A DNA stretch of 64,000 nt from Ignavibacteria bacterium (GTDB lineage Bacteria > Bacteroidota > Ignavibacteria > Ch128b): positions 1,101,231-1,165,230 of the forward strand of contig JABLYA010000001.1 of assembly GCA_013177855.1 (NCBI GenBank), in the 5' to 3' direction. Below, one piece after another: positions 41,083 through 58,991 of the stretch. Below the pieces are notes generated by a model. That model saw only the letters and a list, made by a program, of their open reading frames with translations, was not told where the DNA came from and searched no databases. Every line of letters begins with the position of its first letter. Positions within the stretch are counted from its first letter, which is position 1. Position numbers and translations under genes: made by a program.

Positions 41083-43023
41083 TTATTTAGTTTTTTGATC
41101 CTGAGAAAAAACTGTTATCAATGCATTTAACAAATCCGCTCTTCTAATTGGTTTTGGAATAAAAATAATTCCCATCTCCTCCATTTGTTCTTTTAATCCA
41201 CTTAAAATATCCGCTGATGTTGTAACTATCTTAAGGTTCTGAAGTCTTTCTCGTTTTTTAATTTCCTTAATTACTTCCATTCCTGGAATGTCAGGTAATC
41301 TTAAATCAAGAACAATTCCATCATATTCTTCTGTGATTAATTTATTCAAAGCAAGCTTACCAGAAAAAACAGTTTCAACTTCACATTCTGTCAGCATTAA
41401 TTTAAAGAGCTTATGATTGTACTCTTGATCATCAACGACAAGAATTTTTTTGCCTTTGATAATGGATAAATCTTTTGGAATTTGAACAACTTCAGCTTCT
41501 TCGATCTGTTCGGTTCGTGACGCAGGATAAGTAAAGGTTACTGTAGTTCCCACATTTTTCTTGCTTTCGATTTTAATATCACCTTTCCATAGATTTATTA
41601 TTTCTTTTGAGATTGCAAGACCTAATCCTGAGCCGCCATATTTTTGAGAAATTTCTGGAGCCTGTTCAAAAGGAATAAACAATCGATTTAATTCTTCCTG
41701 AGTCATCCCAATACCAGTATCGCTTATCTTAAAGACCAGCATACCATCATTATAGCGAACATCAACAGAGATCAAACCTTCTTCTGTAAATTTGACAGCG
41801 TTATCAAGAATATTTAATAAAACTCTTTGCAAGTTATGAGCATCAATTAAAAAGTAAGCATCAGGTTCGATATTGGAATTATAATCAAGGGCAACTTTCT
41901 TTCCTATCAATTTCACTTCAATCATTGAAAGGACTGATTTCATCAATGCAATTAAATTATAAGGCTTCTCAATTATTTTAATCTTGCTGGCTTCTGCTTT
42001 AGAAAGATCTAAAATATCATTTAAGACTTTCAAAAGATGTTCAGCACTTTTTTGAATGTATGTAAGGAATTCTTTCAAATCACCATCAATATCCATACTG
42101 ATAAGAATATCAACATAACCCAAAATTATATTGATTGGCGAACGAAGCTCGTGAGACATATTTGCCATAAATCTTGATTTAGTTGCAGCGAGTAAGTCTT
42201 TTTGTTTAACAGTTTCTTCGAGCGATTTGATGTAATCTTTTTCTTTTGAAACATCTATAAATGCAATTAGATAACAAGGTCTACGATGGTATGTAATTTC
42301 GGCTGGATATAAATTTGTCCAGATTTTCCTTTTATCATGATAACGTTGCATTTTTATTAAGTAAGGAGATTTGTCGAGAGTTAAGCCTTCATTAAAAATT
42401 TTTTCAAGAGTACTGATGCTTTCAGAGTCAATTAAATCCCAAATTTTTCTTCCAAGATTTTCACTACTGGAAATCTGAAGTAAATCCATTCCTTTCTTGT
42501 TGGTGAATAATATATCATAAGTTTCTTTATCGATGATCAACAAACCAATATTTACATTCTCAAGAATTTCAGTATGAAGATTTTGCAATTGATTGAATTT
42601 ATCCTGAAAATTTTTTTCTTCAGTATTGTCTTGAACAACTAACAAAAAATATAGACTTTTTTTACCCTTGAGTTTGATTGGATATAGAGAAATATTTGTA
42701 AAGATTTCTGTTCCGTTCTTTGTCAATAAATATGTTTCGTAATCGATTAACGATTTCTCTGAGAGTATAGCTCTAACTAATACATTTTTATTTTTCTCAT
42801 AATCAGATATTAATGCGCCTATATGTTTATTCTTTATCGATCGTTCGCTAAAGCCAAAGATACTGCCCGCTGCCCCTCCCCAGAATTCAATTAATCCACG
42901 ATTGTTGACCAGTATGAATGCCTCTTTAGAATAATCGAGAAATGATTTAAAGAAAGAATAATCTTGATTAAGATTTAATTTAGTTGATGATTTTGTCTTT
43001 TTTTTATTCTCTTTCATTGTCAT
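41083..43023 (-). CDS. hybrid sensor histidine kinase (PAS-PAS-HisKA-HATPase-receiver)
   Basis: A 646-residue soluble kinase without membrane segments. Two PAS domains (~22-140 and ~145-265) are followed by a HisKA with His291 (FMANMSHELRSPINIILGY), a HATPase domain with N, G1 and G2 boxes (LLNILDNAVKFT, KISDTGIGMT, GGSGLGLAI), and a C-terminal receiver with Asp573 (IVLDLRLP) and the switch lysine (PKP). It should sense a cytoplasmic cue and phosphorylate its own receiver; an HPt partner is not in the window. A second ATG two codons later is possible. No SD is visible. The lone receiver at 44897 could be a partner. Confidence 0.92.
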   Translation of the reverse strand: MTMKENKKKTKSSTKLNLNQDYSFFKSFLDYSKEAFILVNNRGLIEFWGGAAGSIFGFSERSIKNKHIGALISDYEKNKNVLVRAILSEKSLIDYETYLLTKNGTEIFTNISLYPIKLKGKKSLYFLLVVQDNTEEKNFQDKFNQLQNLHTEILENVNIGLLIIDKETYDILFTNKKGMDLLQISSSENLGRKIWDLIDSESISTLEKIFNEGLTLDKSPYLIKMQRYHDKRKIWTNLYPAEITYHRRPCYLIAFIDVSKEKDYIKSLEETVKQKDLLAATKSRFMANMSHELRSPINIILGYVDILISMDIDGDLKEFLTYIQKSAEHLLKVLNDILDLSKAEASKIKIIEKPYNLIALMKSVLSMIEVKLIGKKVALDYNSNIEPDAYFLIDAHNLQRVLLNILDNAVKFTEEGLISVDVRYNDGMLVFKISDTGIGMTQEELNRLFIPFEQAPEISQKYGGSGLGLAISKEIINLWKGDIKIESKKNVGTTVTFTYPASRTEQIEEAEVVQIPKDLSIIKGKKILVVDDQEYNHKLFKLMLTECEVETVFSGKLALNKLITEEYDGIVLDLRLPDIPGMEVIKEIKKRERLQNLKIVTTSADILSGLKEQMEEMGIIFIPKPIRRADLLNALITVFSQDQKTK

Positions 43024-44208: not shown

Positions 44209-44895
44209 TTGGCTGGTACTCTTTTCATCGTTTCAACACATATTGGTAATATTGATGATTTAACTTTCAGAGCAAGAAGAATTCTTGCTGATTGTGATCT
44301 TATTATTTGTGAAGAACCAAAACCCGCAAAACTCCTTTTAAAAAATTTAGGCCTTTTCAAAGAACTTATCTTACTAAATGAACACACCGAAAAAGAGAAC
44401 GCTCCTTTAATCATTGAAGAATTAAAGCAAGGTAAGAATTGTTGTTTGATTTCCGATGCAGGAACTCCTGTTTTTTCAGACCCAGGTAAATATTTAATTG
44501 AGCTTGCACGAGAAAACAATATTCCTATTTCAATTGTACCGGGTCCCGATTCTTTAATTCCATCTTTAATAGTTTCAGGTTTTGATATCAGTAAATTTTA
44601 TTTTGCTGGCTGGTTATCACCCAAGTCCGACGAAAGAAAAAATGAATTGCGAAAGTTAAAAAACATTAACGAAACTATTGCAATCATGGAAACCCCTTAC
44701 AGACTTAAGCATTTGTTATCGGATATAATCGAAATTTTTGGTAAAGATACAATTATCTCTCTCGCCTGTGATATTACTACTTCAAATGAAAGAATAATTA
44801 GAGGTGAAGCAGATCAAGTTTATCAGAAAATCTTAAATGAGTATACTAAGTGTGAATTTGTGCTGGTAATTAACAATAAAAAGAAAAGGGAGTAA
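44209..44895 (+). CDS. rsmI: RsmI-like SAM-dependent methyltransferase, short form
   Basis: A 228-residue tetrapyrrole-methylase-fold protein. THIGNIDDLTFRARRIL, then LISDAGTPVFSDPGKYLI and VPGPDSLIPSLIVSGF match RsmI, which 2'-O-methylates C1402 of 16S rRNA. E. coli RsmI is 286 residues; here the C-terminal helical domain is missing, as in short Bacteroidetes homologues. The start is a TTG at 44209, three bases after ilvE, with no ATG nearby. The stop is one base from the stop of the convergent receiver gene. The rRNA target is by family only. Confidence 0.85.
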   Translation: MAGTLFIVSTHIGNIDDLTFRARRILADCDLIICEEPKPAKLLLKNLGLFKELILLNEHTEKENAPLIIEELKQGKNCCLISDAGTPVFSDPGKYLIELARENNIPISIVPGPDSLIPSLIVSGFDISKFYFAGWLSPKSDERKNELRKLKNINETIAIMETPYRLKHLLSDIIEIFGKDTIISLACDITTSNERIIRGEADQVYQKILNEYTKCEFVLVINNKKKRE

Positions 44896-44908
44896 TTTAA
44901 ACTCCCTT
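44886..44908 (-). terminator. hairpin spanning both convergent stop codons
   Basis: AAGGGAGT / ACTCCCTT, 8 bp with a 7-base loop, covers the last codons and stops of the rsmI-like and receiver genes. On the minus strand a TTTTCTTTTT tract follows inside rsmI, so it likely ends the polysaccharide operon. Confidence 0.7.
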
Positions 44909-45277
44909 CAATCCAAGTGCATCTTTCACTTTTTCCATTAAAGATTGGTATGAAACTGGAGAGGTTACGAAATAATTTGCACCAAGTTGAAAACACAATT
45001 CGACCACTTCTTTATCATTTAATGCAGAGGCAACGATTACTTTTGTTCTATCATTTTTAGGATTTGCACGAATTGTTTTTAAAACATCAAATCCACTAAC
45101 TTCTGGCATCATCAAGTCAAGAATAACTAAGTCATAAGTTTTTTCAGCAATTTTAGCTTTTGCTTCTTTTCCATTAGAAGCTGTTTCGGCGTCCAGACCG
45201 GCACGCTTTAAGTAGTGTAAATGCATTTTAACCACTAAGGGGTTATCATCTACAATTAGTATTTTGTAATTATTCAT
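44897..45277 (-). CDS. single-domain response regulator with atypical switch residue
   Basis: A 126-residue receiver with no output domain. Acidic Asp10/Asp11, phospho-acceptor Asp54 (VILDLMMPE) and Ser84 are in place. The conserved lysine of the KP motif is replaced: the strand reads YFVTSPVS, giving Ser106. The lysine normally contacts the phosphate, so signalling may be altered or phosphorylation-independent. It is the last gene of the polysaccharide operon and overlaps the GT-C gene as ATGA (SD GAGGAACA). A role in controlling the glycosyltransferase complex is suggested by context only. Confidence 0.88.
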   Translation of the reverse strand: MNNYKILIVDDNPLVVKMHLHYLKRAGLDAETASNGKEAKAKIAEKTYDLVILDLMMPEVSGFDVLKTIRANPKNDRTKVIVASALNDKEVVELCFQLGANYFVTSPVSYQSLMEKVKDALGLKGV

Positions 45278-46788
45278 TGTTCCTCTATTGGTATTTGTTG
45301 TTGCTGCATTAATGACTTATAAACTCTCCATTTCGGAGTTTGATATACTAATGTAGTAAATTCAAAGCCCTTTTCAAAAGCATCTGGATACATTGCTGTT
45401 AACTGATCAAAACCAGTATAGGTTATATCCGGTCGTGGAACAACTATATAATTAGCTGCAAATTGTGGTTTCTGAATTACTCTAACATAATCGTATTGAT
45501 AAGGAAGATAAAATTGTTTCGGACTTGAATAGAAACAAACAATCGGATAACCAACAGCATCATCTATAAGTATCATATCGTTTTCCGTTGTATTCTCTTT
45601 TAAAAACTTTGCAACTTCTAATTCTTCTTTGAAAATATCTTCAACTGGTTCTCCTTTCAATACTGTTGCAAAATTTTTCTCTGTTACATCAACCGAATTA
45701 TCCAATGATTTATAACTGAAATATAAAGAGAATGCCATTGCCACTATTACAACAAAAGCATAAGCTGGACGATAAAGCGGTGAATTAATGAAATAATACA
45801 TTATTATTATGCTTAGTGGAATTAAAACTCCAAACCAGCTATATGTTAAAGCAGATATTCCAAGAAAGATTACGATAATTTGCAGGATTATAGGAGCAAA
45901 TGCAGCTACAAAAATTGTGATGGTTCGAATTGTTGGAAGTGTAAAATAGTAAGCTGGATAAGTCAAGAAAGACATCTTAATTACAATCCATATTGCCCAC
46001 AAAATATTACCTTTGCCCTCAGCTAATTCAGGCCTTAACAACATCTCCTTAGAAACTTGTTTAAAGTATGAGTAAGGACTGAAATAAAAATAAAATGGTT
46101 CTCCTGCAAAAATCCAGTTTAAGTAAACCCATGAACCAAGAACAATAAATGTTGGAAGAACAAGCATCAAAGTTAGAGCAAAGATTCTAACAACATTAAA
46201 TTCAATTGTTTCACTAATTAAAAACGGAGCAAATGGAATTAAAGCTAAAGTCAAAAAGAATGTATCGTATCTTATTCCTGACATCGCACCAAGCGCAACA
46301 CCCGAAAGAACAATGTAATATGGTATTCTTGTCTCATGGAATCTGAAGAAAGAGTAAACAAAGATTACAAAAAATAAAATATAAAGCGTCTGACTTGGTT
46401 GGGCAAAAATTAAATAAAGGAAAACTGGGTTAACAAACATTAAAATTGTAATCAACAATTTTACAAGCGTATTCCCTGGAATCCATCTTAAATATCTGAT
46501 ACAAAGAGCAACAATCAATGCACCCCAGAATGTTGAAATCACAAGAGAGGCAATAGGTGATGATGATATTGCAAGAGGCAGATAAAACAGGTATGGAAGT
46601 GGAGGATAAATTAATCCTAAATTTTCAAGTCTTGGTGGATTGCCCCTCATAGCAAGTTGAGCTTTCTCCATCAAGAAGATACCTTCTTGAGCATAGAAAT
46701 TATAGTTGAGATAAAGGAACGTACCTATAAGGAAAAATCCAATCCAGAAGAGAAGAAAAACAATTATATCTCGTGGTTTTATTGCCAT
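45274..46788 (-). CDS. GT-C-fold membrane glycosyltransferase (GT39/ArnT-like)
   Basis: A 504-residue protein with about 11 membrane helices and a C-terminal soluble part (~385-504). The first periplasmic loop (NYFNFYAQ-like, here NYNFYAQEGIFLMEKAQLA) and the LIYPPLPYLFYLPLA stretch resemble PMT/ArnT-type glycosyltransferases that use lipid-linked sugars at the periplasmic face. The usual acidic pair is reduced to a Gln-Glu. It starts at the base directly after the GT2 stop, with only a weak SD. It might add side sugars to the polymer or make the lipid-linked donor; this is inference. Confidence 0.78.
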   Translation of the reverse strand: MAIKPRDIIVFLLFWIGFFLIGTFLYLNYNFYAQEGIFLMEKAQLAMRGNPPRLENLGLIYPPLPYLFYLPLAISSSPIASLVISTFWGALIVALCIRYLRWIPGNTLVKLLITILMFVNPVFLYLIFAQPSQTLYILFFVIFVYSFFRFHETRIPYYIVLSGVALGAMSGIRYDTFFLTLALIPFAPFLISETIEFNVVRIFALTLMLVLPTFIVLGSWVYLNWIFAGEPFYFYFSPYSYFKQVSKEMLLRPELAEGKGNILWAIWIVIKMSFLTYPAYYFTLPTIRTITIFVAAFAPIILQIIVIFLGISALTYSWFGVLIPLSIIIMYYFINSPLYRPAYAFVVIVAMAFSLYFSYKSLDNSVDVTEKNFATVLKGEPVEDIFKEELEVAKFLKENTTENDMILIDDAVGYPIVCFYSSPKQFYLPYQYDYVRVIQKPQFAANYIVVPRPDITYTGFDQLTAMYPDAFEKGFEFTTLVYQTPKWRVYKSLMQQQQIPIEEQ

Positions 46789-48717
46789 TTATACATTTCT
46801 CAATATTTCTGGTTTTTTGACTGTAGTTACACCATGAGTAGTTTTTTCCCAGTAGAACGGTTTAAAAATTAATTGCCATAACGCTTTATAGGCACCAAGT
46901 GAATGCAAAATCCAATAAAATGGATTTAACAAGGCATAAACCACAAGTCCGTATAATCTTCTTCTAAAGACTGCAAGCATATTCATATAAACAACCATCG
47001 CGTTTCCTATTAATAAATTGAACAAAGAAATATATAAAACCCATGCAGGGAAAATTTCCGAAATCCATTGTGGTCGGAAAATTAGCCATGTTATAAATAA
47101 AATCCATAAAGGCAAGTTGATTAAAAATGTTGCAGGAGTTCCACCAATAAAGAGGAAGAAAGCAAACATACCTCTGAAACCAATTTTTCTGTACAACTCA
47201 ATCGGATTTCTCATATGCACGAGGAATGTTTGCATATAACCTTTAACCCATCGTGATCTTTGACGTATCCAGCTTCTAACTCTTTTATTAGCTTCTTCGT
47301 ATGTAGTAGAATTAATAGTTCCAACTTTATAACCTTTTGCATAAGCTCTAACTCCAAGATCAGCGTCTTCGGTCACATTGAATGGATCCCATGCATTTAG
47401 CTCAACAAGTTTATCTTTAATAAAGTGATTACTTGTCCCTCCTAATGGAATAGGAACATTTAATCTATCCATACCTGGTAACATATAATCAAACCAATAA
47501 GAGTATTCAAGCGTGAACATTTTGGTCAAGAAATTCTCATTAGCATTGAAGTAATTTAATTGTGCTTGAATACAGATTACATCTTCCGGGAATTTTTTGA
47601 ATCCAACTATTGCCTTCTTAAGTTGGTCGGGTTCAGGAATATCTTCAGCATCGTAAATTGTTACAATTTCACCTCTGCAGAATACAAGCCCATAGTTGCA
47701 AGCTTTGGGTTTGGTTTTGGGCTGCATATTTGGAACAACAATGCATTCAAATATCGAAGGAATATTCAAATTTCTGATTTTGTTTATTGTGGCAAAATCA
47801 TCTTCTTCAAGTAGAATTTTTATATCTAATTTATCTTTCGGATAATCAAGTTGACTTAATGCATATATTAAAGTTTCTATTACTTCTGGTTCCTTATAGA
47901 CAGGAAGTAAAATGCTGTAAACTGGTAAATCTTCATCATGAAGTTCTCTAATTTCAGCTTGCGTCACTGCTTCATAAAGCTCAAATCTTGCTCCCGCTAA
48001 AGTTAAGACAAACTTAAATCCAATTGAAAATAGATAAAGAAGGTTTACAACAGCCATTAAAATTGTAAACGTCAAAGATGTATCAACTGCAACACCAATT
48101 ATAAACAGAGTTCCGAGTATTGCAATAGAAATAACTTGTGGAAGTGTGAAAGTTTCTATAGCAGAACTTCGTTCATCTTCAATAAATAAACTATAAACTG
48201 CACTTTCAGCTAATTCCTGGCCAAATGCTTTATGTAAAACCCATTGAATATCAACATCAGTTGCATAAAAAATTTTTAGCGGTGTTTGAACCCGTTCATA
48301 AATATAATCAATGGCTTCTTGATCAAGTGGATTGAGCATCGCTACGTAAAGATAATCCCCATTCCTTCTGAAAGGACAAATTAATCTATCCTGTAAATAA
48401 GTTTGATCAAAAGACATTAAGAGTTCATAATCTATCTCTTGAATTAATAAATCTACTTTACCAACAGGAATTGCTTTTCTTATAACAGCTTCATAATCCG
48501 TTCTTGAAATATATCCATAGAAAAGTAAAGCTTTAGGAAAGTATAATTTTTCTCTCTCAGCAAAAGCCTCTATTTCTTCAATTTTCTCCTGCGAGAAAAT
48601 CTTTTCTTTAATTAATATTTTTTGTAACGCCTTTTTATGATTGGAACCAGATGCCGAGCTTGAAAGCTCTTCCGGCACCAACATCTCGTCCAAAGGCGTC
48701 CACGCTGTATCCGACAT
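46789..48717 (-). CDS. processive GT2 glycosyltransferase (BcsA-like) with N-terminal MshEN-like domain
   Basis: A 642-residue inner-membrane synthase. Residues ~28-175 look like the MshEN/GSPII_E N-terminal domain, which binds cyclic di-GMP in MshE and NfrB, although its Arg/Gly motif residues look degenerate. Two helices (~190-238) follow, then the GT2 domain with LLPVYKEPEV, DAED near 354, TEDADLG near 447 and RQRSRW near 484 (QxxRW), then four or so helices. The BcsA PilZ domain is missing. The BcsB-like gene upstream makes a secreted beta-glucan-like polymer likely. The start overlaps the outer-membrane gene by 83 bases; Met12 (48684) is an alternative. Confidence 0.87.
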   Translation of the reverse strand: MSDTAWTPLDEMLVPEELSSSASGSNHKKALQKILIKEKIFSQEKIEEIEAFAEREKLYFPKALLFYGYISRTDYEAVIRKAIPVGKVDLLIQEIDYELLMSFDQTYLQDRLICPFRRNGDYLYVAMLNPLDQEAIDYIYERVQTPLKIFYATDVDIQWVLHKAFGQELAESAVYSLFIEDERSSAIETFTLPQVISIAILGTLFIIGVAVDTSLTFTILMAVVNLLYLFSIGFKFVLTLAGARFELYEAVTQAEIRELHDEDLPVYSILLPVYKEPEVIETLIYALSQLDYPKDKLDIKILLEEDDFATINKIRNLNIPSIFECIVVPNMQPKTKPKACNYGLVFCRGEIVTIYDAEDIPEPDQLKKAIVGFKKFPEDVICIQAQLNYFNANENFLTKMFTLEYSYWFDYMLPGMDRLNVPIPLGGTSNHFIKDKLVELNAWDPFNVTEDADLGVRAYAKGYKVGTINSTTYEEANKRVRSWIRQRSRWVKGYMQTFLVHMRNPIELYRKIGFRGMFAFFLFIGGTPATFLINLPLWILFITWLIFRPQWISEIFPAWVLYISLFNLLIGNAMVVYMNMLAVFRRRLYGLVVYALLNPFYWILHSLGAYKALWQLIFKPFYWEKTTHGVTTVKKPEILRNV

Positions 48718-49471
48718 AACCTGATATATGTTTGTTAAACTTATAAATTATTGCAGGTTCAACTTTAAATAGTGAGAAGTCAAGATTTCTTAAAAAGATT
48801 TGACTGAATGTTAGATTTTGATCTACTTTATCTTGATTACCTAATCCTAATATCAAACTGCCTTGAAGTAAAAAAGACATTCGGGGTGAAATATTTAATC
48901 CCAAAGTGGCTCCAGCTCTCAATTGATCTGATGGCGCTTCGAACCTTTTTCTTATTCCTATATAAATTTCCCAGAATCCTTGAGACATTGTATAACCAAA
49001 AGGTGAACCGACTAACATTGTAACTTGAAGATCTACCTGACCATTACCTAATGGCGGATCGCCCGGATTTGTGTAAAATGGAAATGCAACAAGAAATTGC
49101 AATGCCGCTGTTGGAACATCATCAAGTATCTTGAATTGAATTCCAACCTCTTGATCTCCAAATCCACCGTTAGTTACCATCCCAATACTATCACGATAGC
49201 TTAATCCGTAATAAAATAAATTCGCTAAAAACATTACATCATTTTCAAGACCATATTCGTAATAAATGTTTGTTTCATACTTAGTAAAAACTCCCCCAAG
49301 TGGTAAAAAGAATCTTTCGCCATTTCTATTAAAAATTGTTTCCGAAGAATAAAATGACTGAGTTCCTGAAAGAAAATACCGATTCATCTTTTGCTGCCAG
49401 ACACTACTATATGCTTCTGCATAAAGAGCAATAAGTAGAACAAGTATCAGGTTAATGATTCTTTTAACCAC
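48635..49471 (-). CDS. outer-membrane beta-barrel protein of the polysaccharide locus
   Basis: A 278-residue protein: signal peptide (~1-20, ending AEAYS) and an all-beta body with GGFGDQEVGIQFK, GLNISPRMSFLLQGSLILGLG and a C-terminal strand ending FKLGIWFQS, as in BAM-assembled barrels. It resembles small outer-membrane transporters (phenol-degradation MetA-like) but not BcsC, so it may be the export pore or a structural barrel for the polymer. It starts at GTG 49471, overlapping the end of the BcsB-like gene by 8 bases; no ATG is available. Confidence 0.78.
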   Translation of the reverse strand: MVKRIINLILVLLIALYAEAYSSVWQQKMNRYFLSGTQSFYSSETIFNRNGERFFLPLGGVFTKYETNIYYEYGLENDVMFLANLFYYGLSYRDSIGMVTNGGFGDQEVGIQFKILDDVPTAALQFLVAFPFYTNPGDPPLGNGQVDLQVTMLVGSPFGYTMSQGFWEIYIGIRKRFEAPSDQLRAGATLGLNISPRMSFLLQGSLILGLGNQDKVDQNLTFSQIFLRNLDFSLFKVEPAIIYKFNKHISGYVGYSVDAFGRDVGAGRAFKLGIWFQS

Positions 49472-51566
49472 GAGCTATTCTAACTCCTCTTCTACTTCTT
49501 GTATAAAGTAAAATTGATAATCCTATAATAATCACCCACGCAAGAATAATCCAGACATATTTAAATTTATCCCACCGAATTTTTAGAGGTTCTTTCTGAA
49601 CAGATTCAGTTGTATAAAATACCTTATCAAGAGCCTCAGCAGTTTTAAAGACAAGTGGATAATCTGCGCCACTCATAATCGCAACATTTCCATCTATCGT
49701 TCCAATTCTTTGGCTGAATTGATCAGCAAGTTTAACAAGATAGCCTTTTCCTTCTTGTCCATAACTTGAAACAAGCAAAACATTATTACTTGTTAGTGTT
49801 TTTGTTAATTGCATAACTGCAATTGGCATATTATCAGAATATTCAAACATAACCTGTTTAGTTGAACTACTTATTATTTTGAAATTTTGACTTAAGTCTA
49901 ATGGTAAATACTCAAATGACTCTTTATTGTATCTAACATCAGACGAAACCACTATGTAATTATTATTTGAATTTTCCATTGTTGCAAACATCTCTGCAAA
50001 AGACATTATCGGAGGGAAATATTGTTCTTGTTTAGATATTTTTTGAATTGCATTAACAATGGAGGAAGCAGCCTGTATATGCTCTGGCAGTGGATTTGAT
50101 TGAAAAACAACATAAGTATTTGTTAAAAATGCATTTGGGAAATTACTGAAATTTGAAGCCTTTCCAACATTTTCTGCGGTTACATCAAAGTAAGAGTAAG
50201 AATAAACTTCTCCAACAAATTGAGTTAAATCATCTCTACACTCACCTTCATCTGGGAAATAACTGAATTCAATCTCGAAAGTATTCATTTTTTTGAATAA
50301 ATATTTGGGAAGTGAAACAAGCAATCCATTAATAGTCCCAGTTTGATCTAATCGTTTACTTTCAACTAAAACATCATTTAAATAGACATTAATGAAACCA
50401 TTTTGAAATTGTTCTTTGACGGGTGTGTATTTTGAATAAAGATAGAAATCAACTGAACCGATGTATTTTGCCAATTCGAGTTCTGATATAAACATTGTAA
50501 TTCTTAAACTTCCAATTCCTTTAGTCTGGATTCTTTCGAACCCAAGTTCATCTAAGGTCAATTTGTATTTATTGCCGACAAATGACTTTATCTTGAAAGG
50601 TTCTATGTATCTAATTAGAGAAAAATTTGATAAGAGCTTAACAAATTGTTTAGGATTGACAATGCTTGCAGCTGATTTCTGTACAGATTTATCATTATCC
50701 CCTGTTACATAAAGTATTTTTGTTCCATCATAGAGTTTAACAAATAAAACACCATCTTCGGTTGTAAATTGTTGCTTCGCAAGATTATTAATCTCATTTC
50801 TTTCAACTGAGAAAGGCACTGGTAGACTCATTAATTCATCAGTTTTTCCAATTGCTATTACATGACTAAAACTCTTTATCCTCATTGGGTCAATTTCTTC
50901 AAAGCTACTGTAAAATATATTTTCAGACTTAACGAGATCAAGTAATCTCGTGTTAAGCCACATAGTACTTCCTGCAAGATTTGGATTTATTCTTTTGGGT
51001 GTAAGAATTAAAATTTTCTCAAATTTATCGAAGAAGAAATCTGCTATTGTATTTTTTAATTGTTCTGAATAATTCAAGACAAGTTTAGATCTTTGTCGAA
51101 TAACCATCCACAATCCCTGGGTTGCAAGATCTCTACATCTATCATCAGTTATGTTCAAATATCCACCGACCTCAATTTTAAGAAGAGGTTTTTCGCTGAC
51201 CAATAAATCCTCAAGTTTTACATCATTTAATGGAATTTTAATTACGGGATTCGTTGATACATTTCTTACAAATGCTGTATAAACCGGAACATCGTTAACT
51301 GAAATTTTAATATTGGAATAATCGCTTAAAATTGTTGAAACACTCATATACAATTCAAAATAGCTGTTTTGAAAATCTATACCTCCTCTTGGAACTGGGA
51401 AAAAGAAAGTTTGGGCTGGTGTAATTCCATACAAAACTACATCCTTTTGATACCCAATGTCTTTCAACGAAATCTCCTTATAATTTTGAGCATTCATTCG
51501 TAAAGGAAAGAAAAAAATTAGAGCTAAGACGAGGCTAAATAAAATAAAGTAGATTTTTTTATTCAT
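49464..51566 (-). CDS. BcsB-like periplasmic subunit of a polysaccharide synthase
   Basis: A 700-residue protein: signal peptide (1-27, cut near MNAQ), a periplasmic body with BcsB features (PRGGIDFQNSYFELY, INVYLND-type jelly-roll strands, and the DDRCRDLATQGLWM cysteine motif near 140, a second CRDD motif near 430) and one C-terminal membrane helix (~672-690) with a basic tail. In cellulose synthase BcsB guides the emerging glucan through the periplasm and supports BcsA through its anchor. It begins behind an SD-hiding hairpin, 63 bases from rlmD, and heads the five-gene operon. Confidence 0.85.
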   Translation of the reverse strand: MNKKIYFILFSLVLALIFFFPLRMNAQNYKEISLKDIGYQKDVVLYGITPAQTFFFPVPRGGIDFQNSYFELYMSVSTILSDYSNIKISVNDVPVYTAFVRNVSTNPVIKIPLNDVKLEDLLVSEKPLLKIEVGGYLNITDDRCRDLATQGLWMVIRQRSKLVLNYSEQLKNTIADFFFDKFEKILILTPKRINPNLAGSTMWLNTRLLDLVKSENIFYSSFEEIDPMRIKSFSHVIAIGKTDELMSLPVPFSVERNEINNLAKQQFTTEDGVLFVKLYDGTKILYVTGDNDKSVQKSAASIVNPKQFVKLLSNFSLIRYIEPFKIKSFVGNKYKLTLDELGFERIQTKGIGSLRITMFISELELAKYIGSVDFYLYSKYTPVKEQFQNGFINVYLNDVLVESKRLDQTGTINGLLVSLPKYLFKKMNTFEIEFSYFPDEGECRDDLTQFVGEVYSYSYFDVTAENVGKASNFSNFPNAFLTNTYVVFQSNPLPEHIQAASSIVNAIQKISKQEQYFPPIMSFAEMFATMENSNNNYIVVSSDVRYNKESFEYLPLDLSQNFKIISSSTKQVMFEYSDNMPIAVMQLTKTLTSNNVLLVSSYGQEGKGYLVKLADQFSQRIGTIDGNVAIMSGADYPLVFKTAEALDKVFYTTESVQKEPLKIRWDKFKYVWIILAWVIIIGLSILLYTRSRRGVRIARG

Positions 51567-53573: not shown

Positions 53574-56500
53574 ATGATTACAAATCTACAAAATCGGATA
53601 TCAATAGTGAGGTTTTTTCTAATGATCTCACTATTCATCTTTTCCGTCATTTTCCCCAATTCTGTTAAAGCTCAAGGTAATTCCTGTGATTTGAGCAATT
53701 TCGTTACATACACTCAGGGTGGCTGGGGAAATAAAGGAGGGAAACTCTGCAATGGTGTAACTTTTATTACAGTAAAACAAATTGAAACTGGTGCAGAGAT
53801 TTCTAAAGGAGATGGAACAAATAAATTAGGAGCTAATACAACTTTTACTTTTCCGAACGGAAAATCGGTTGTAATTCACACCTCATGTTCTCAGCCTATC
53901 TACATTGGAATGAGAGTTTCATCAGATGGATTTACTTATGAGATAACTCAATTAACAACTATCCCGTCTTCATCGGTAAATCCTGGGAATATTAGAGATT
54001 TATATTTTTCAGAAGTATTTCCTTCTGGACTACAAGTTGGGGGAAATTATACTCTTAAACTAACAAGCGCTAAAGCAGTTGAAAACTTTTTACCACAAGG
54101 TGGATCTCCTAAAGCACTTGACAAAAACTACATAGATCCCAAAAGCACTAAAGCTGGTGTTTTTGCTGGTCAGGTAGTAGCTCTCAAACTAAATGTCGCT
54201 TTTAGCGATGCTGGTAAAATTGGTACTGGTTCAGTTAAACTTGGTGAATTAATTGTTAATGCCGGTCCTCTTGCTGGTAAAACAGTCTATGAAGTTTTAA
54301 ATCTTGCAAATATTGCCTTAGGAGGTGGAACCACTTCTTACACCATCACTCAATTAAATGAAGCAGTAACTGCAATAAACGAAAACTTTGATGGTGGAAA
54401 GGTAAACAAGAATTATTTAAGATGTCCTGATTTACCTCAACTTGGATCACTTTCAGGCACTGTATTTTTCGATGTAAATGGTAATGGAGTTTTTGACCTA
54501 GGTGAATTCGGATTACCCAATGTCAAAGTATATTTGTTTTCAAATTCAATCTTAATTGATTCGACATTAACAGATGCATCAGGCTTTTATAAATTTTCTA
54601 ATTTAAATGCCGGGAACTATAGCATACAGGTTATTGATCCTTACTTATTAGTTCTTACAACTCCACCTAATCCTAGAAACGTATCTCTTACAAGTGGTGA
54701 AAATAAGATTAACATAAATTTTGGTTATAAATGTGGTCAACAACTTGCAAAGATTTCCGGTTATGTTTATGTCGACGCAAATAAAAACGGAGTAAAAGAT
54801 GCAGGAGAATCACCACTAGCAAATGTGACAATTAAATTATACGACGAAAATGGTGCGATCATTAATACGACTACAACAAATGCAAGTGGATTTTATGAAT
54901 TTTCAGGACTAATTCCTGGTTTTTATACAGTTGAAGAAATTGACCCTGATATGTATCGAAGCACTACTCCTAATTATATCAACATAACTCTTTCCTCAGG
55001 TCAGAATTCTCAGAACAATAATTTTGGGGATATTCTATCAGCAGATATCTGTGGATTAGTATTTAACGATGAGAATGGTGATGGAATAAAACAACCATCA
55101 GAACTTGGAATTGCTGATGTTTTGATAGAATTGTATGAAATGCCTTCAGGAAACTTTGTCGCCTCTACAGTCACTGGCGTTAATGGTGAATATTGCTTCC
55201 CATACTTAATTCCTAATACTTATAAGATTAAAGAACACGATTTGCCCGGTTATATTAGCACTACCCCAAATGAAATTTCTTTAACTGTTAATCAAGGTGA
55301 CAAAAGTTACAATAATAACTTTGGTGATAAAATTCATACCATTCAAAAAGGTTCAATCGGTGATTTTGTCTGGAATGATTTAAATAAAAACGGCATTCAA
55401 GATCCTAATGAACCAGGAATGGCGAATGTTATAGTTAAACTTTACGATTGCAACAACAACTGGATCAAAGAAATTACTACAGATGCAAATGGCTTCTATA
55501 AGTTTGACAGCTTAAATCCAGGTTCATACCAAATCTTAGTACAATTACCAAATGGATTTACTTTCTCACCAGTAAATCAAGGCTCTGATGATACTAAGGA
55601 TTCAGATATTGATCCATTAACCTGGAAATCTCATTGCATCAATTTAATGAGTGGACAAAACTTAACCAGCGTTGATGCAGGTATGTATGCTCTACCTACT
55701 TGTTCAATTGGCGACAGAGTATGGAATGATCTCAACAAAAATGGTATACAGGATCCATTTGAACCTGGAGTACCAAATATTAAAGTTAAGCTAATTGATT
55801 GTTCCAATTCAAATGTCGTTCAAACCATAACAACAAATTCAAATGGAAATTATCTATTCACAAATGTTGTGTCAGGAACATACAAGTTGAAATTTTATGA
55901 CTTACCGAGTGGTTGGCAATTCACATCAAAAGATGTCGGTTCAAATGATTTAATTGATTCAGATGTCGACCCATCAACTGGTATGACCGTTTGCTTCCCA
56001 ATCGATGTTTTCAATTGTGATAGTAATTCAACTCGTTGGGATGCTGGAATTTATTTTGAAGCTCCGCAACTCTATTGCTCAATCGGTGATAAAGTTTGGG
56101 ATGATTTGAACAAGAATGGCATTCAGGATCCAAACGAACCAGGAGTATCAAACATCACGGTGAAGTTATTCTCCTGCTCAACATCAATCCCAATCGATGT
56201 AAAAATTACTAATGCTCAAGGAAATTATAAGTTTGATAATGTCCCTGCAGGAAATTATTACATTAAATTTGAAAATCTTCCTACGGGTTATGTTTTCACC
56301 GTTAAAGATGCTGGTTCTAATGATTTATTGGATTCCGATGTTGATCCATTAACAGGAAAAACTGCTTGCTTCCCAATTGATCCACAGAATTGTGACAGCA
56401 ATTCAATACGCTGGGATGCTGGTATTTATTTGTGCCCGCCTACCTATGAAGTTAGCGGAATGGTATTTAATGATGTCAATGGAAATGGAATTAAAGATTT

Positions 56501-58991
56501 TGGTGAAGTTGGAATTCCTAATGTTCTAATCAAATTGTGGGGTACATCTGCTAATTTAATTGCAACCACTTTGACTAATACACAAGGTATGTTCAAATTT
56601 ACAGGTGTTGTTCCTGGTGATTATCATGTGCAAGAGATAGATCCTCCAGGATATGTTAGTACAACACCAAATTCGTTCTTCATAACAGTTGCTGGTTCTA
56701 ATGTAAGCAATATACTTTTTGGTGATAAAGTTAAACCACAGCCTGAACCATGTGACCTAACAAAATATAAGACTTATACTCAAGATCAGTGGTGCCTCGA
56801 ACCAGCAAGATCATTATTACTTACAAAATTCTCTCAAGTATTTTCATCTGGAATGAAAATAGGCGATGCTGGTTCACCATATTCAATAACATTTACAAAC
56901 GCTAATGCTCTGCTTTCATTCTTACCACAAATTGGCTCACCTGGAGCTCTTAATATGAGCTACATAAATCCAACTTCAACAACTGCTGGCCAATTTGCTG
57001 GTAATGTTGCATCATTAGCATTGAATATTGCATTGAATGATTCCGGCTTCCTTGGCTCTACTTCTACAACTAAACTTGGTAATCTTGTCGTTGCATCAGG
57101 TCCATTGAAAGATTACAAAGTCTATGAAGTTCTATTACTTGCAAATAAGGCACTCGGTGGTGGTACAACTCCATTCTCCATCCAGACATTAAACGATGTA
57201 GTCAGTTCAATTAATTACAACTTTGCATGCGATTGCAACTATGGATATTTGACCTGCCCGCCTCCACCAGATTCTTGCGGCGGTGGATTTGACGCTGGCG
57301 TTGAATCTAATGCAAATCTTGCTGACCTGTTACTACAAAGATTAACCAAGATAGAATATGGAATGACAACAAAGATTCTTAAGAATTCAAGATTTGTTTT
57401 CAAAGGTTCATTTGGATTACAAGAAATTTTCCCACAGGTTGGTCCAATGGGTTCCAGACCGGTTGAAACAACTCCATTCGATATTCTTGGAATTTCAAAT
57501 GCAACTTCAGCTTATGCAGTTGACTACAACCTCTCACTTGCTAAGGGTGATGTAAGAGTTGCGAGCGTATTCGCAACAACTACAAATCCGCCATATATCT
57601 ATGAACATACAAAAGCAATTTGTGACAGATTGATAAACGCTGAGCTGGATTATATTTCTCAGGTTAAGATCGATAACCACTACTTCTTTGCTTCAGTACT
57701 TGATAAGGTTGAAGAAGGAGTAAAAGATTATACAATTCATTTCAGCATCTATGAAGTTGGTAACCGATATTTGGTTGACTCGAGATGGTTAATTGAAGAA
57801 TATGATGTTCCTTCAAGTGCAAACAATGTTTACAACTTCCAGGTTTGGGGTAACAATTTCCAGAATGCTATCTATCTAACTGAATTGATACTTGAACAAT
57901 TTAAGGCAAAAGGACAAGTTGAATATCTAAATAGCAATCCAATTGCTCCATCATTGGTTTATGTGAAAAAAGGTAAATACAACCACAATGGTACCATCGA
58001 ATTGATTATAAATAATGAACAGGTTGTTTCTGACAATATCACAATTAGATTTAAAGCTCGTGAAATTCAAGGTGGTGATAGAAATGAATTTGTGAGAATA
58101 TATCAGATCAATCCTGGCTTGAACACATTAATTATTAATACAGGCATTCTCTCAGACGCAAATGTTTATATCTCATCCACCAATGGATTTAAAGATGAAA
58201 TCTTTGTGAGCGGTGGTGCTTATACTTACTTAAATGGCAGTTCATCCAGAGTTGATGAATTTATAACAAATACATTCGTCAATCCTAACCTGAGCTCATT
58301 GCCAAAAGAATCAATGGTTCTGAGCGGTGGTGCAAGAGTTCGTGGACAGCTCGGCGATTGGATTACAATATTCCGTTCGCTCACTGCCAACACTGCACCT
58401 TATGATTTAAGTGATTACGATGCAGTTAGAATTACAATTCACGGATATGGAAAAGTTCAGCTTAGATTAGAGCAAGATGGTATAAAGAATTTCGATTTCC
58501 ACATAAAGCAACTTACTCTTGATGGTTCTGAGCAAACAATTACAATTCCATTCAATGAATTCAAACAGATGAGTGGAAATAGTAAACTTGATCCAAGATT
58601 AATCAGAAAGATTTCGCTGATGATACTCAAGACCGATAATCCATCAATGACAAATGTAGATATTGAGATTAAGAACATTGCGTTCTTAAAGAATCACAGC
58701 GATGAAAATACTGGTGTTGAGATACCAAAAGAATTCAAACTTTCTCAGAACTATCCAAACCCGTTCAATCCAAGTACATTGATTGAATACTCGGTTGCAA
58801 AACCAGAACACATAACTATAAAAGTGTATAATGTTTTAGGTAAAGAGGTTGCAACACTTGTTGATGAAATGAAAGAACCAGGTGTCTATTCAGTAAGATT
58901 TGATGCAAGCAATCTAAGCTCAGGAATATACTTCTACAAGTTACAGAGTGAATCTTACAATGCTGTGAAGAAGATGATTTTGCAGAAGTAA
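53574..58991 (+). CDS. giant T9SS-exported adhesin with seven SdrD B-like domains
   Basis: A 1805-residue surface protein. A signal peptide (1-34, ending VKAQ) leads into a domain at ~38-284. Seven SdrD/Cna-B-like domains follow at ~288-1055, each with a calcium-type DxNxNGxxDxxE loop (for example NDLNKNGIQDPNEPG). The first domain then recurs at ~1062-1226 in shorter form (CDLTKYKTYTQDQW, FLPQIGSPGAL, LGGGTTPFSI, GYLTCP). After ~300 unassigned residues a beta domain at ~1560-1705 resembles carbohydrate-binding modules (CBM11/CIA30-like). A T9SS sorting domain ends the protein (QNYPNPFNPST, SGIYFYKL, KKMILQK). It likely mediates attachment. SD GGGGG; a terminator follows. Confidence 0.9.
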   Translation: MITNLQNRISIVRFFLMISLFIFSVIFPNSVKAQGNSCDLSNFVTYTQGGWGNKGGKLCNGVTFITVKQIETGAEISKGDGTNKLGANTTFTFPNGKSVVIHTSCSQPIYIGMRVSSDGFTYEITQLTTIPSSSVNPGNIRDLYFSEVFPSGLQVGGNYTLKLTSAKAVENFLPQGGSPKALDKNYIDPKSTKAGVFAGQVVALKLNVAFSDAGKIGTGSVKLGELIVNAGPLAGKTVYEVLNLANIALGGGTTSYTITQLNEAVTAINENFDGGKVNKNYLRCPDLPQLGSLSGTVFFDVNGNGVFDLGEFGLPNVKVYLFSNSILIDSTLTDASGFYKFSNLNAGNYSIQVIDPYLLVLTTPPNPRNVSLTSGENKININFGYKCGQQLAKISGYVYVDANKNGVKDAGESPLANVTIKLYDENGAIINTTTTNASGFYEFSGLIPGFYTVEEIDPDMYRSTTPNYINITLSSGQNSQNNNFGDILSADICGLVFNDENGDGIKQPSELGIADVLIELYEMPSGNFVASTVTGVNGEYCFPYLIPNTYKIKEHDLPGYISTTPNEISLTVNQGDKSYNNNFGDKIHTIQKGSIGDFVWNDLNKNGIQDPNEPGMANVIVKLYDCNNNWIKEITTDANGFYKFDSLNPGSYQILVQLPNGFTFSPVNQGSDDTKDSDIDPLTWKSHCINLMSGQNLTSVDAGMYALPTCSIGDRVWNDLNKNGIQDPFEPGVPNIKVKLIDCSNSNVVQTITTNSNGNYLFTNVVSGTYKLKFYDLPSGWQFTSKDVGSNDLIDSDVDPSTGMTVCFPIDVFNCDSNSTRWDAGIYFEAPQLYCSIGDKVWDDLNKNGIQDPNEPGVSNITVKLFSCSTSIPIDVKITNAQGNYKFDNVPAGNYYIKFENLPTGYVFTVKDAGSNDLLDSDVDPLTGKTACFPIDPQNCDSNSIRWDAGIYLCPPTYEVSGMVFNDVNGNGIKDFGEVGIPNVLIKLWGTSANLIATTLTNTQGMFKFTGVVPGDYHVQEIDPPGYVSTTPNSFFITVAGSNVSNILFGDKVKPQPEPCDLTKYKTYTQDQWCLEPARSLLLTKFSQVFSSGMKIGDAGSPYSITFTNANALLSFLPQIGSPGALNMSYINPTSTTAGQFAGNVASLALNIALNDSGFLGSTSTTKLGNLVVASGPLKDYKVYEVLLLANKALGGGTTPFSIQTLNDVVSSINYNFACDCNYGYLTCPPPPDSCGGGFDAGVESNANLADLLLQRLTKIEYGMTTKILKNSRFVFKGSFGLQEIFPQVGPMGSRPVETTPFDILGISNATSAYAVDYNLSLAKGDVRVASVFATTTNPPYIYEHTKAICDRLINAELDYISQVKIDNHYFFASVLDKVEEGVKDYTIHFSIYEVGNRYLVDSRWLIEEYDVPSSANNVYNFQVWGNNFQNAIYLTELILEQFKAKGQVEYLNSNPIAPSLVYVKKGKYNHNGTIELIINNEQVVSDNITIRFKAREIQGGDRNEFVRIYQINPGLNTLIINTGILSDANVYISSTNGFKDEIFVSGGAYTYLNGSSSRVDEFITNTFVNPNLSSLPKESMVLSGGARVRGQLGDWITIFRSLTANTAPYDLSDYDAVRITIHGYGKVQLRLEQDGIKNFDFHIKQLTLDGSEQTITIPFNEFKQMSGNSKLDPRLIRKISLMILKTDNPSMTNVDIEIKNIAFLKNHSDENTGVEIPKEFKLSQNYPNPFNPSTLIEYSVAKPEHITIKVYNVLGKEVATLVDEMKEPGVYSVRFDASNLSSGIYFYKLQSESYNAVKKMILQK
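54440..56730 (+). repeat. seven tandem SdrD B-like domain repeats
   Basis: Units begin near aa 288, 392, 488, 593, 711, 835 and 957 of the adhesin. Units 4-6 share nearly the same DNA over the calcium loop (for example AAAAACGGCATTCAAGATCC), indicating recent duplication, while units 1-3 and 7 have diverged. Confidence 0.85.

Follow-up and report, generated by a model that had tools for sequence, protein, structure and literature searches.

What controls a polysaccharide synthase that carries a domain of the MshEN family, known from receptors of cyclic di-GMP (c-di-GMP), in a genome with no working c-di-GMP machinery? The question is raised by a five-gene, minus-strand operon in a 64,000-nt stretch of an Ignavibacteria bacterium genome (contig JABLYA010000001.1, positions 1,101,231 to 1,165,230; hereafter the window, in whose own numbering coordinates are given). 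From first gene to last, the operon encodes a BcsB-like protein, a probable outer-membrane β-barrel, a synthase of MshEN::GT2 architecture, a GT-C-fold membrane protein and a single-domain receiver; the genes overlap or abut, in the order, on the strand and at the coordinates that an initial annotation of the sequence had given. The core of BcsB-like protein, synthase and GT-C protein recurs linked across many phyla, which rules out a chance assembly of unrelated genes; the annotation had asked whether the set might be unlinked in relatives, and it is linked. We found that the MshEN domain has lost its ligand motif here and in all Bacteroidota members of the family, and that nearly all motif-lost operons adjoin two-component genes. 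On balance, we lean towards reading the locus as an exopolysaccharide machine of the xag/sfz type, in which a former receptor domain would serve as a docking input and activation would come from two-component proteins.

The synthase (46789-48717, minus strand; 642 aa) matched the GT2 families PF13632 (73.6 bits) and PF13641, and the MshEN family PF05157 over residues 84-170 (44.3 bits against a cut-off of 23.1). We take IPR007831 to be this same MshEN family. Its AlphaFold model (mean pLDDT 86, pTM 0.85) comprises a four-helix bundle (residues 30-82), an alpha/beta part and a membrane GT2 enzyme, which correspond to the subdomains MshEN_N (residues 29-84; 48466-48633) and MshEN_C (residues 85-170; 48208-48465) and to the GT2 catalytic domain (residues 263-500; 47218-47931), all on the minus strand. 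The catalytic domain carries DAED, TED and QRSRW, and the DAED, TED and QxxRW residues were invariant in an alignment of 22 diverse members. The best PDB fold matches of the model were cellulose synthase BcsA, at the top, and hyaluronan synthase. A profile of the N-terminal domain against PDB sequences found PilB, MshE (5htl, E 2.1e-18) and XpsE. The N-terminal domain is thus a true MshEN fold, on which family match, profile and model agree, and the proposal of a processive synthase with a BcsB-type partner also stood, the partner passing the BcsB family PF03170. In several very long frames (792-1412 aa; L157-L163) from the phylum search around G334, the same synthase is apparently fused to something else.

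In MshEN domains, the c-di-GMP site consists of two 24-residue motifs joined by a 5-residue linker, and XpsE has lost binding through changes there (PMC5013675); a survey of Leptospira likewise treats XpsE as degenerate (PMC12943098). We scored 22 positions of this 53-residue motif, 12 of them counted as key, in 142 family rows, and called a motif intact at ≥15/22, a threshold set after seeing that the scores were bimodal. The window synthase scored 8/22, which is the level of shuffled controls (6-12/22), with 11 of the 12 key positions changed and only the first Leu kept. None of the 79 rows from Bacteroidota, among them that of the window, exceeded 13. Scores of 15-21 were found in 47 of the 142 rows, representing 42 distinct loci once second copies from the same genome were dropped, none of them in Bacteroidota. 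Outside that phylum, the motif was kept in 42 of the 44 distinct loci that have the N-terminal domain, the exceptions being L140 and L141; a further 14 of the 142 rows scored low because they lack the domain or have a broken frame. The motif-intact loci belong to Aquificaceae, Synergistaceae, Sporomusaceae, Desulfobacterales and 'Bacterium HR27/HR28', together with matches from searches of the phyla of four of their genomes. A motif-intact copy (L199, CP128455.1; 19/22) is also carried by a conjugative plasmid of Geobacillus stearothermophilus, next to a gene for a nucleotidyltransferase. The only other MshEN protein of the host genome (595 aa; L041:3862-5646, G000:C1, ~855 kb) also has a degenerate motif (10/22).

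The host genome matches this picture. It contains no EAL protein, in a search that covered 21 genomes, no PilZ domain anywhere, and a single GGDEF-family protein (611 aa; L001:1480-3315, G000:C2:95789-96247) whose signature is lost and reads ETLKF. Signature-less GGDEF matches also occur in three Ignavibacteria relatives, which suggests a conserved relic. A first GGDEF search took in 47 genomes, those of 39 of the 80 named loci and eight from the phylum search. Strong GGDEFs were present in seven, which are exactly the seven with an intact motif, while six genomes had weak matches only: the host, three Ignavibacteria-type relatives and G328, all without the signature, and Mucilaginibacter gossypiicola. 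A search of 37 more genomes from outside Bacteroidota found GGDEFs at E <1e-20 in 36 of them. The initial annotation had suggested c-di-GMP as the input to the synthase; for this organism, motif and genome content both speak against it, and we dropped that candidate.

Two-component genes lie beside most motif-lost operons. Counting a gene as touching the operon within 600 bp, at loci with adequate flanks (limits 1500/600 bp), a same-strand histidine kinase or receiver gene touched 65 of 67 motif-lost and none of 23 motif-intact loci (56/58 against 0/22 after merging at 95% identity). In most Bacteroidota, this is a kinase gene that immediately precedes bcsB. The window and two close relatives have a receiver gene immediately following the GT-C gene and, ~1.9 kb beyond it, a gene for a hybrid kinase. 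The window receiver (44897-45277, minus strand; 126 aa; PF00072, 92.3 bits) retains, in alignment, the acidic pocket and the phosphoacceptor Asp. Its candidate partner is a PAS-PAS-HisKA-HATPase-REC hybrid kinase (41083-43023, minus strand), which L044 and L045 also have on this flank of the operon.

We then placed these states on a tree of the GT2 part. After dropping the 14 rows with an absent or broken N-terminal domain and six duplicates, 122 rows were kept, represented by 69 sequences at <85% identity. The window fell within a clade of 32 rows, all motif-lost (bootstrap 96; Shimodaira–Hasegawa-like approximate likelihood ratio test 92). The tree requires four changes of motif state, and a single clade of all motif-lost rows was rejected (approximately unbiased test, p 0.0118); therefore, the motif has changed more than once. 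We infer that these changes were losses rather than gains. A second, separate motif-lost lineage, L040, has both a kinase and a receiver gene at its operon and no GGDEF in its genome (G180), although it sits on a long branch. In the main lost clade, the site of the former half-motif II is occupied by a (near-)invariant patch, K62 to Y75 (48493-48534, minus strand), in which K62 is fixed in 31/32 rows and L65, G68, R72 and Y75 each in 32/32. Only G68 among these residues is about equally fixed in motif-intact rows (33/34). From its conservation pattern, the patch looks like a new constraint and not plain decay.

These observations fit the following scheme. The GT2 enzyme would polymerise a sugar and push the chain across the inner membrane with its BcsB-like partner, the GT-C enzyme may decorate it with the help of a lipid-linked donor, and the polymer would leave through the barrel. 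The MshEN domain, probably descended from a c-di-GMP receptor domain, would no longer bind c-di-GMP, and the Bacteroidota branch may keep it as a docking surface, so that the activating input passes to two-component proteins encoded at the operon. In the window this would be the lone receiver, for which the hybrid kinase encoded close by is a plausible phosphodonor; in most relatives, the membrane histidine kinase upstream of bcsB would be the input. A more specific proposal, which we put forward tentatively, is that in at least two branches, that of Bacteroidota included, the receptor domain became a platform on which a receiver or a histidine kinase, in part a pseudokinase, docks to gate the synthase directly.

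Several findings weigh against this scheme. The supported independent contrasts number two for GGDEF and one for two-component linkage; therefore the association, despite its high counts, does not reach significance once the tree is taken into account, and the docking input rests on few independent events. Individual genomes also depart from the pattern. L140 and L141 have lost the motif although their genomes (G725, G726) carry GGDEFs; L154 (G1156) has a motif score of 20, yet no GGDEF at E 1e-20; M. gossypiicola has one GGDEF with its signature; and a distant homologue on a Neorhizobium plasmid (L201) scores 8. L116 and L120 lack the motif without having a two-component gene, and plasmid locus L200, with 16/22, has a receiver gene that overlaps its GT-C gene and is followed by a kinase gene (the locus was found later and stands outside the 0/23 count). 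Some of the signalling proteins are themselves atypical. Across the 67 upstream kinases, tabulated with the window kinase as a 68th, reference entry, all six catalytic positions checked are kept in 46, and 21 lack some H-, N-, D- or G-box residues and are pseudokinase-like. The window receiver has Ser in place of the usual Lys, and that of L034 has Val. We presume the usual functional roles for these kinase and receiver residues; with the Lys replaced and many kinases degenerate, phosphotransfer may therefore not be the signal. The catalytically degenerate kinases sit upstream of bcsB in Chitinophagaceae-type loci, in L038/L095 and in L100.

Other explanations of the same data differ in how the MshEN domain is used. 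It could be a mere structural remnant on a synthase that is constitutive once made, with the kinase or receiver controlling transcription or something else. Conservation of MshEN_N is indeed a little lower in the lost clade (2.36 bits) than among intact rows (2.56 bits), unlike that of all other regions, which is higher in the lost clade, and many operon kinases have no adjacent receiver. However, a new invariant patch has replaced half-motif II, and the window receiver, whose gene shares 4 nt with that of the GT-C protein, has no DNA-binding domain; we consider a remnant rather unlikely. Continued sensing of c-di-GMP, or of some other cyclic dinucleotide, by a diverged site in the domain is improbable. 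The true MshEN fold, the canonical motif of non-Bacteroidota relatives and the mild or absent effect of several single substitutions in the NfrB motif (PMC8669469, PMC8669472) are compatible with such sensing, but 11 of the 12 key positions are changed here, eight changes are listed for XpsE, which has lost binding (PMC5013675), and the host has no EAL, PilZ or signature-bearing GGDEF protein.

An ordinary cellulose (bcs) operon, minus PilZ and BcsC and with no special input, would account for the BcsB match of the first gene, the BcsA fold match of the synthase and a GH5 endoglucanase-like gene, with endoglucanases as its PDB matches, that flanks 42 of the 67 motif-lost loci having at least 4 kb upstream. 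Against it, the synthase reached 62.1 bits with the CelA model TIGR03030 (cut-off 699.1), MshEN::GT2 proteins are a family of their own that is conserved in several phyla, and genes for a ManC-like GDP-mannose enzyme near 7 of 27 motif-intact loci (L093, L096, L117, L182, L186, L188, L192) hint at mannose chemistry there. We rejected a plain bcs operon, which we regard as very improbable. Because GH5-like genes flank lost loci and ManC-like genes flank intact ones, the type of polymer may vary by lineage, being a glucan in some and containing mannose in others.

The initial annotation could match the whole set to no described system. The core architecture is in fact already described as the xag/sfz/sfb type. 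The sfz/sfb stalk-formation genes (PMC8250860) and xag-like genes (PMC4643136) comprise a BcsB-like protein, an 'EpsE-like' type II secretion system domain (IPR007831) fused to GT2, a ~500-aa protein of unknown function and a GH10 protein; this domain is named T2SSE_N/MshEN in PMC5013675, and xagAB contributes to biofilms in Xanthomonas (PMC3609779). The clusters of Ferriphaselus and Mariprofundus share with the window the order of BcsB-like protein, T2SSE_N::GT2 with TED and QxxRW, and ~500-aa protein, a likeness of architecture only. They differ from it in ending with a GH10-type gene, whereas a scan of eight proteins at the window operon detected no glycoside hydrolase such as Sfz4/XagD; neither the barrel between BcsB and the synthase nor the receiver is part of the sfz/xag clusters as described in the cited passages. 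Their hosts are reported to have c-di-GMP genes, and the N-terminal domain was taken there as an EpsE-like ATPase part and not as MshEN. The annotation was right in part: in the open-licence literature, we found no report of MshEN ligand-site loss together with two-component linkage.

More distant likenesses help to define the system. NfrB of the E. coli NGR system (NfrB-NfrA-YbcH) also fuses GT2 to MshEN, serves a secreted glycan and works with an outer-membrane pore, but the GT2 part comes first and MshEN last, binding of c-di-GMP has been measured, the motif is intact, NfrA is a barrel with tetratricopeptide repeats (TPR), and a BcsB homologue is noted, in the passages cited, only in Achromobacter (PMC8669469, PMC8669472). 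The window synthase scored 22.6 bits with the NfrB model PRK11234 (cut-off 1170). The Bcs system (BcsA-BcsB-BcsZ-BcsC) shares a processive GT2 enzyme and a BcsB-family partner; the window operon differs by a regulatory domain that is N-terminal and of another fold, and by the added GT-C protein and receiver. As the initial annotation had noted, PilZ, BcsZ and BcsC are missing: PilZ is absent from the synthase as from the genome, and neither BcsC (TPR plus barrel) nor BcsZ is present in the operon. The N-terminal domain of XpsE/GspE is likewise an MshEN fold without c-di-GMP residues, but it is fused to a secretion ATPase (PMC5013675). For the receiver, the closest parallel, and a precedent for such control, is EpsW of Myxococcus xanthus, a lone receiver domain with its Asp that is reported to activate the exopolysaccharide enzyme EpsZ by direct contact and to act post-translationally (PMC12802240). 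EpsZ, a phosphoglycosyl transferase of a Wzx/Wzy pathway, is unlike the window synthase, and the window receiver scored 56.1 bits with the NCBIfam EpsW model (cut-off 200).

The remaining operon proteins are less well anchored in known families. The BcsB-like protein (49464-51566, minus strand; 700 aa) passed PF03170 with 93.2 bits (cut-off 21; E 1.6e-26); it remained far under the cut-offs of the NCBIfam BcsB models, and a PDB sequence search with it gave no match. No Pfam or NCBIfam family matched the window's barrel and GT-C proteins, and no Pfam match was obtained in the 11 and 16 members of the respective family alignments. The second gene (48635-49471, minus strand; 278 aa) probably encodes an outer-membrane barrel, judging from its place between the bcsB and synthase genes, one homologue (L034) that passes PF13557 (30.2 bits, cut-off 22), a marginal PDB match to the outer-membrane-type protein 4rl8 (E 0.017) and the look of the sequence. 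No barrel was recognised in the Mucilaginibacter loci. For the fourth protein (45274-46788, minus strand; 504 aa), the AlphaFold model (pLDDT 77, pTM 0.80) and its Foldseek matches to OST, PglB, AftA and ArnT (best E 1.3e-4) bear out the GT-C fold proposed initially, while a PDB sequence search found no match. Relatives are labelled PMT_2-like or 'GT39', among them a 'glycosyltransferase family 39' homologue on the conjugative Geobacillus plasmid, where the gene order is nucleotidyltransferase, BcsB, glycosyltransferase and GT-C homologue. In 16 aligned rows, the first periplasmic loop has no invariant acid; elsewhere D409 is invariant and E370 and D410 are nearly so. On the strength of this predicted fold, the protein may be a transferase that decorates the polymer.

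The junctions of the operon are tight. The bcsB and barrel genes overlap by 8 nt, the barrel and synthase genes by 83 nt (48635-48717), the synthase and GT-C genes abut, and the GT-C and receiver genes overlap by 4 nt. The 83-nt overlap presupposes that the synthase starts at its first ATG; the resulting extra N-terminus of ~25 residues is similar in L045, absent from most other members and modelled with low confidence. A candidate terminator-like hairpin lies 3′ of the receiver gene (44885-44909, minus strand), in a region that has three such hairpins against 3.5 expected, and a promoter scan gave no excess (29 found, 44 expected). Upstream, on the other strand, a 1805-aa protein (53574-58991) has seven SdrD B-like repeats and a type IX secretion tail. 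Two open reading frames of equal length (1193 aa) proved unrelated when compared. The host genome measures 3.66 Mb, metagenome-assembled genomes of Ignavibacteria are the closest among its named relatives, and the synthase is 94% identical to its homologues in L043 and L045.

Synthase-dependent polysaccharides are usually discussed as being under c-di-GMP control, and the present family indicates that an 'MshEN' annotation does not imply c-di-GMP sensing. It also connects the architecture reported for the stalk clusters of iron oxidisers with uncharacterised operons in Mucilaginibacter, Chitinophagaceae, Ignavibacteria, Aquificota, Chloroflexota and other groups. If our reading is correct, these operons would represent a natural experiment in the exchange of an allosteric input, in which a ligand site was replaced, c-di-GMP enzymes were lost and two-component neighbours were gained.

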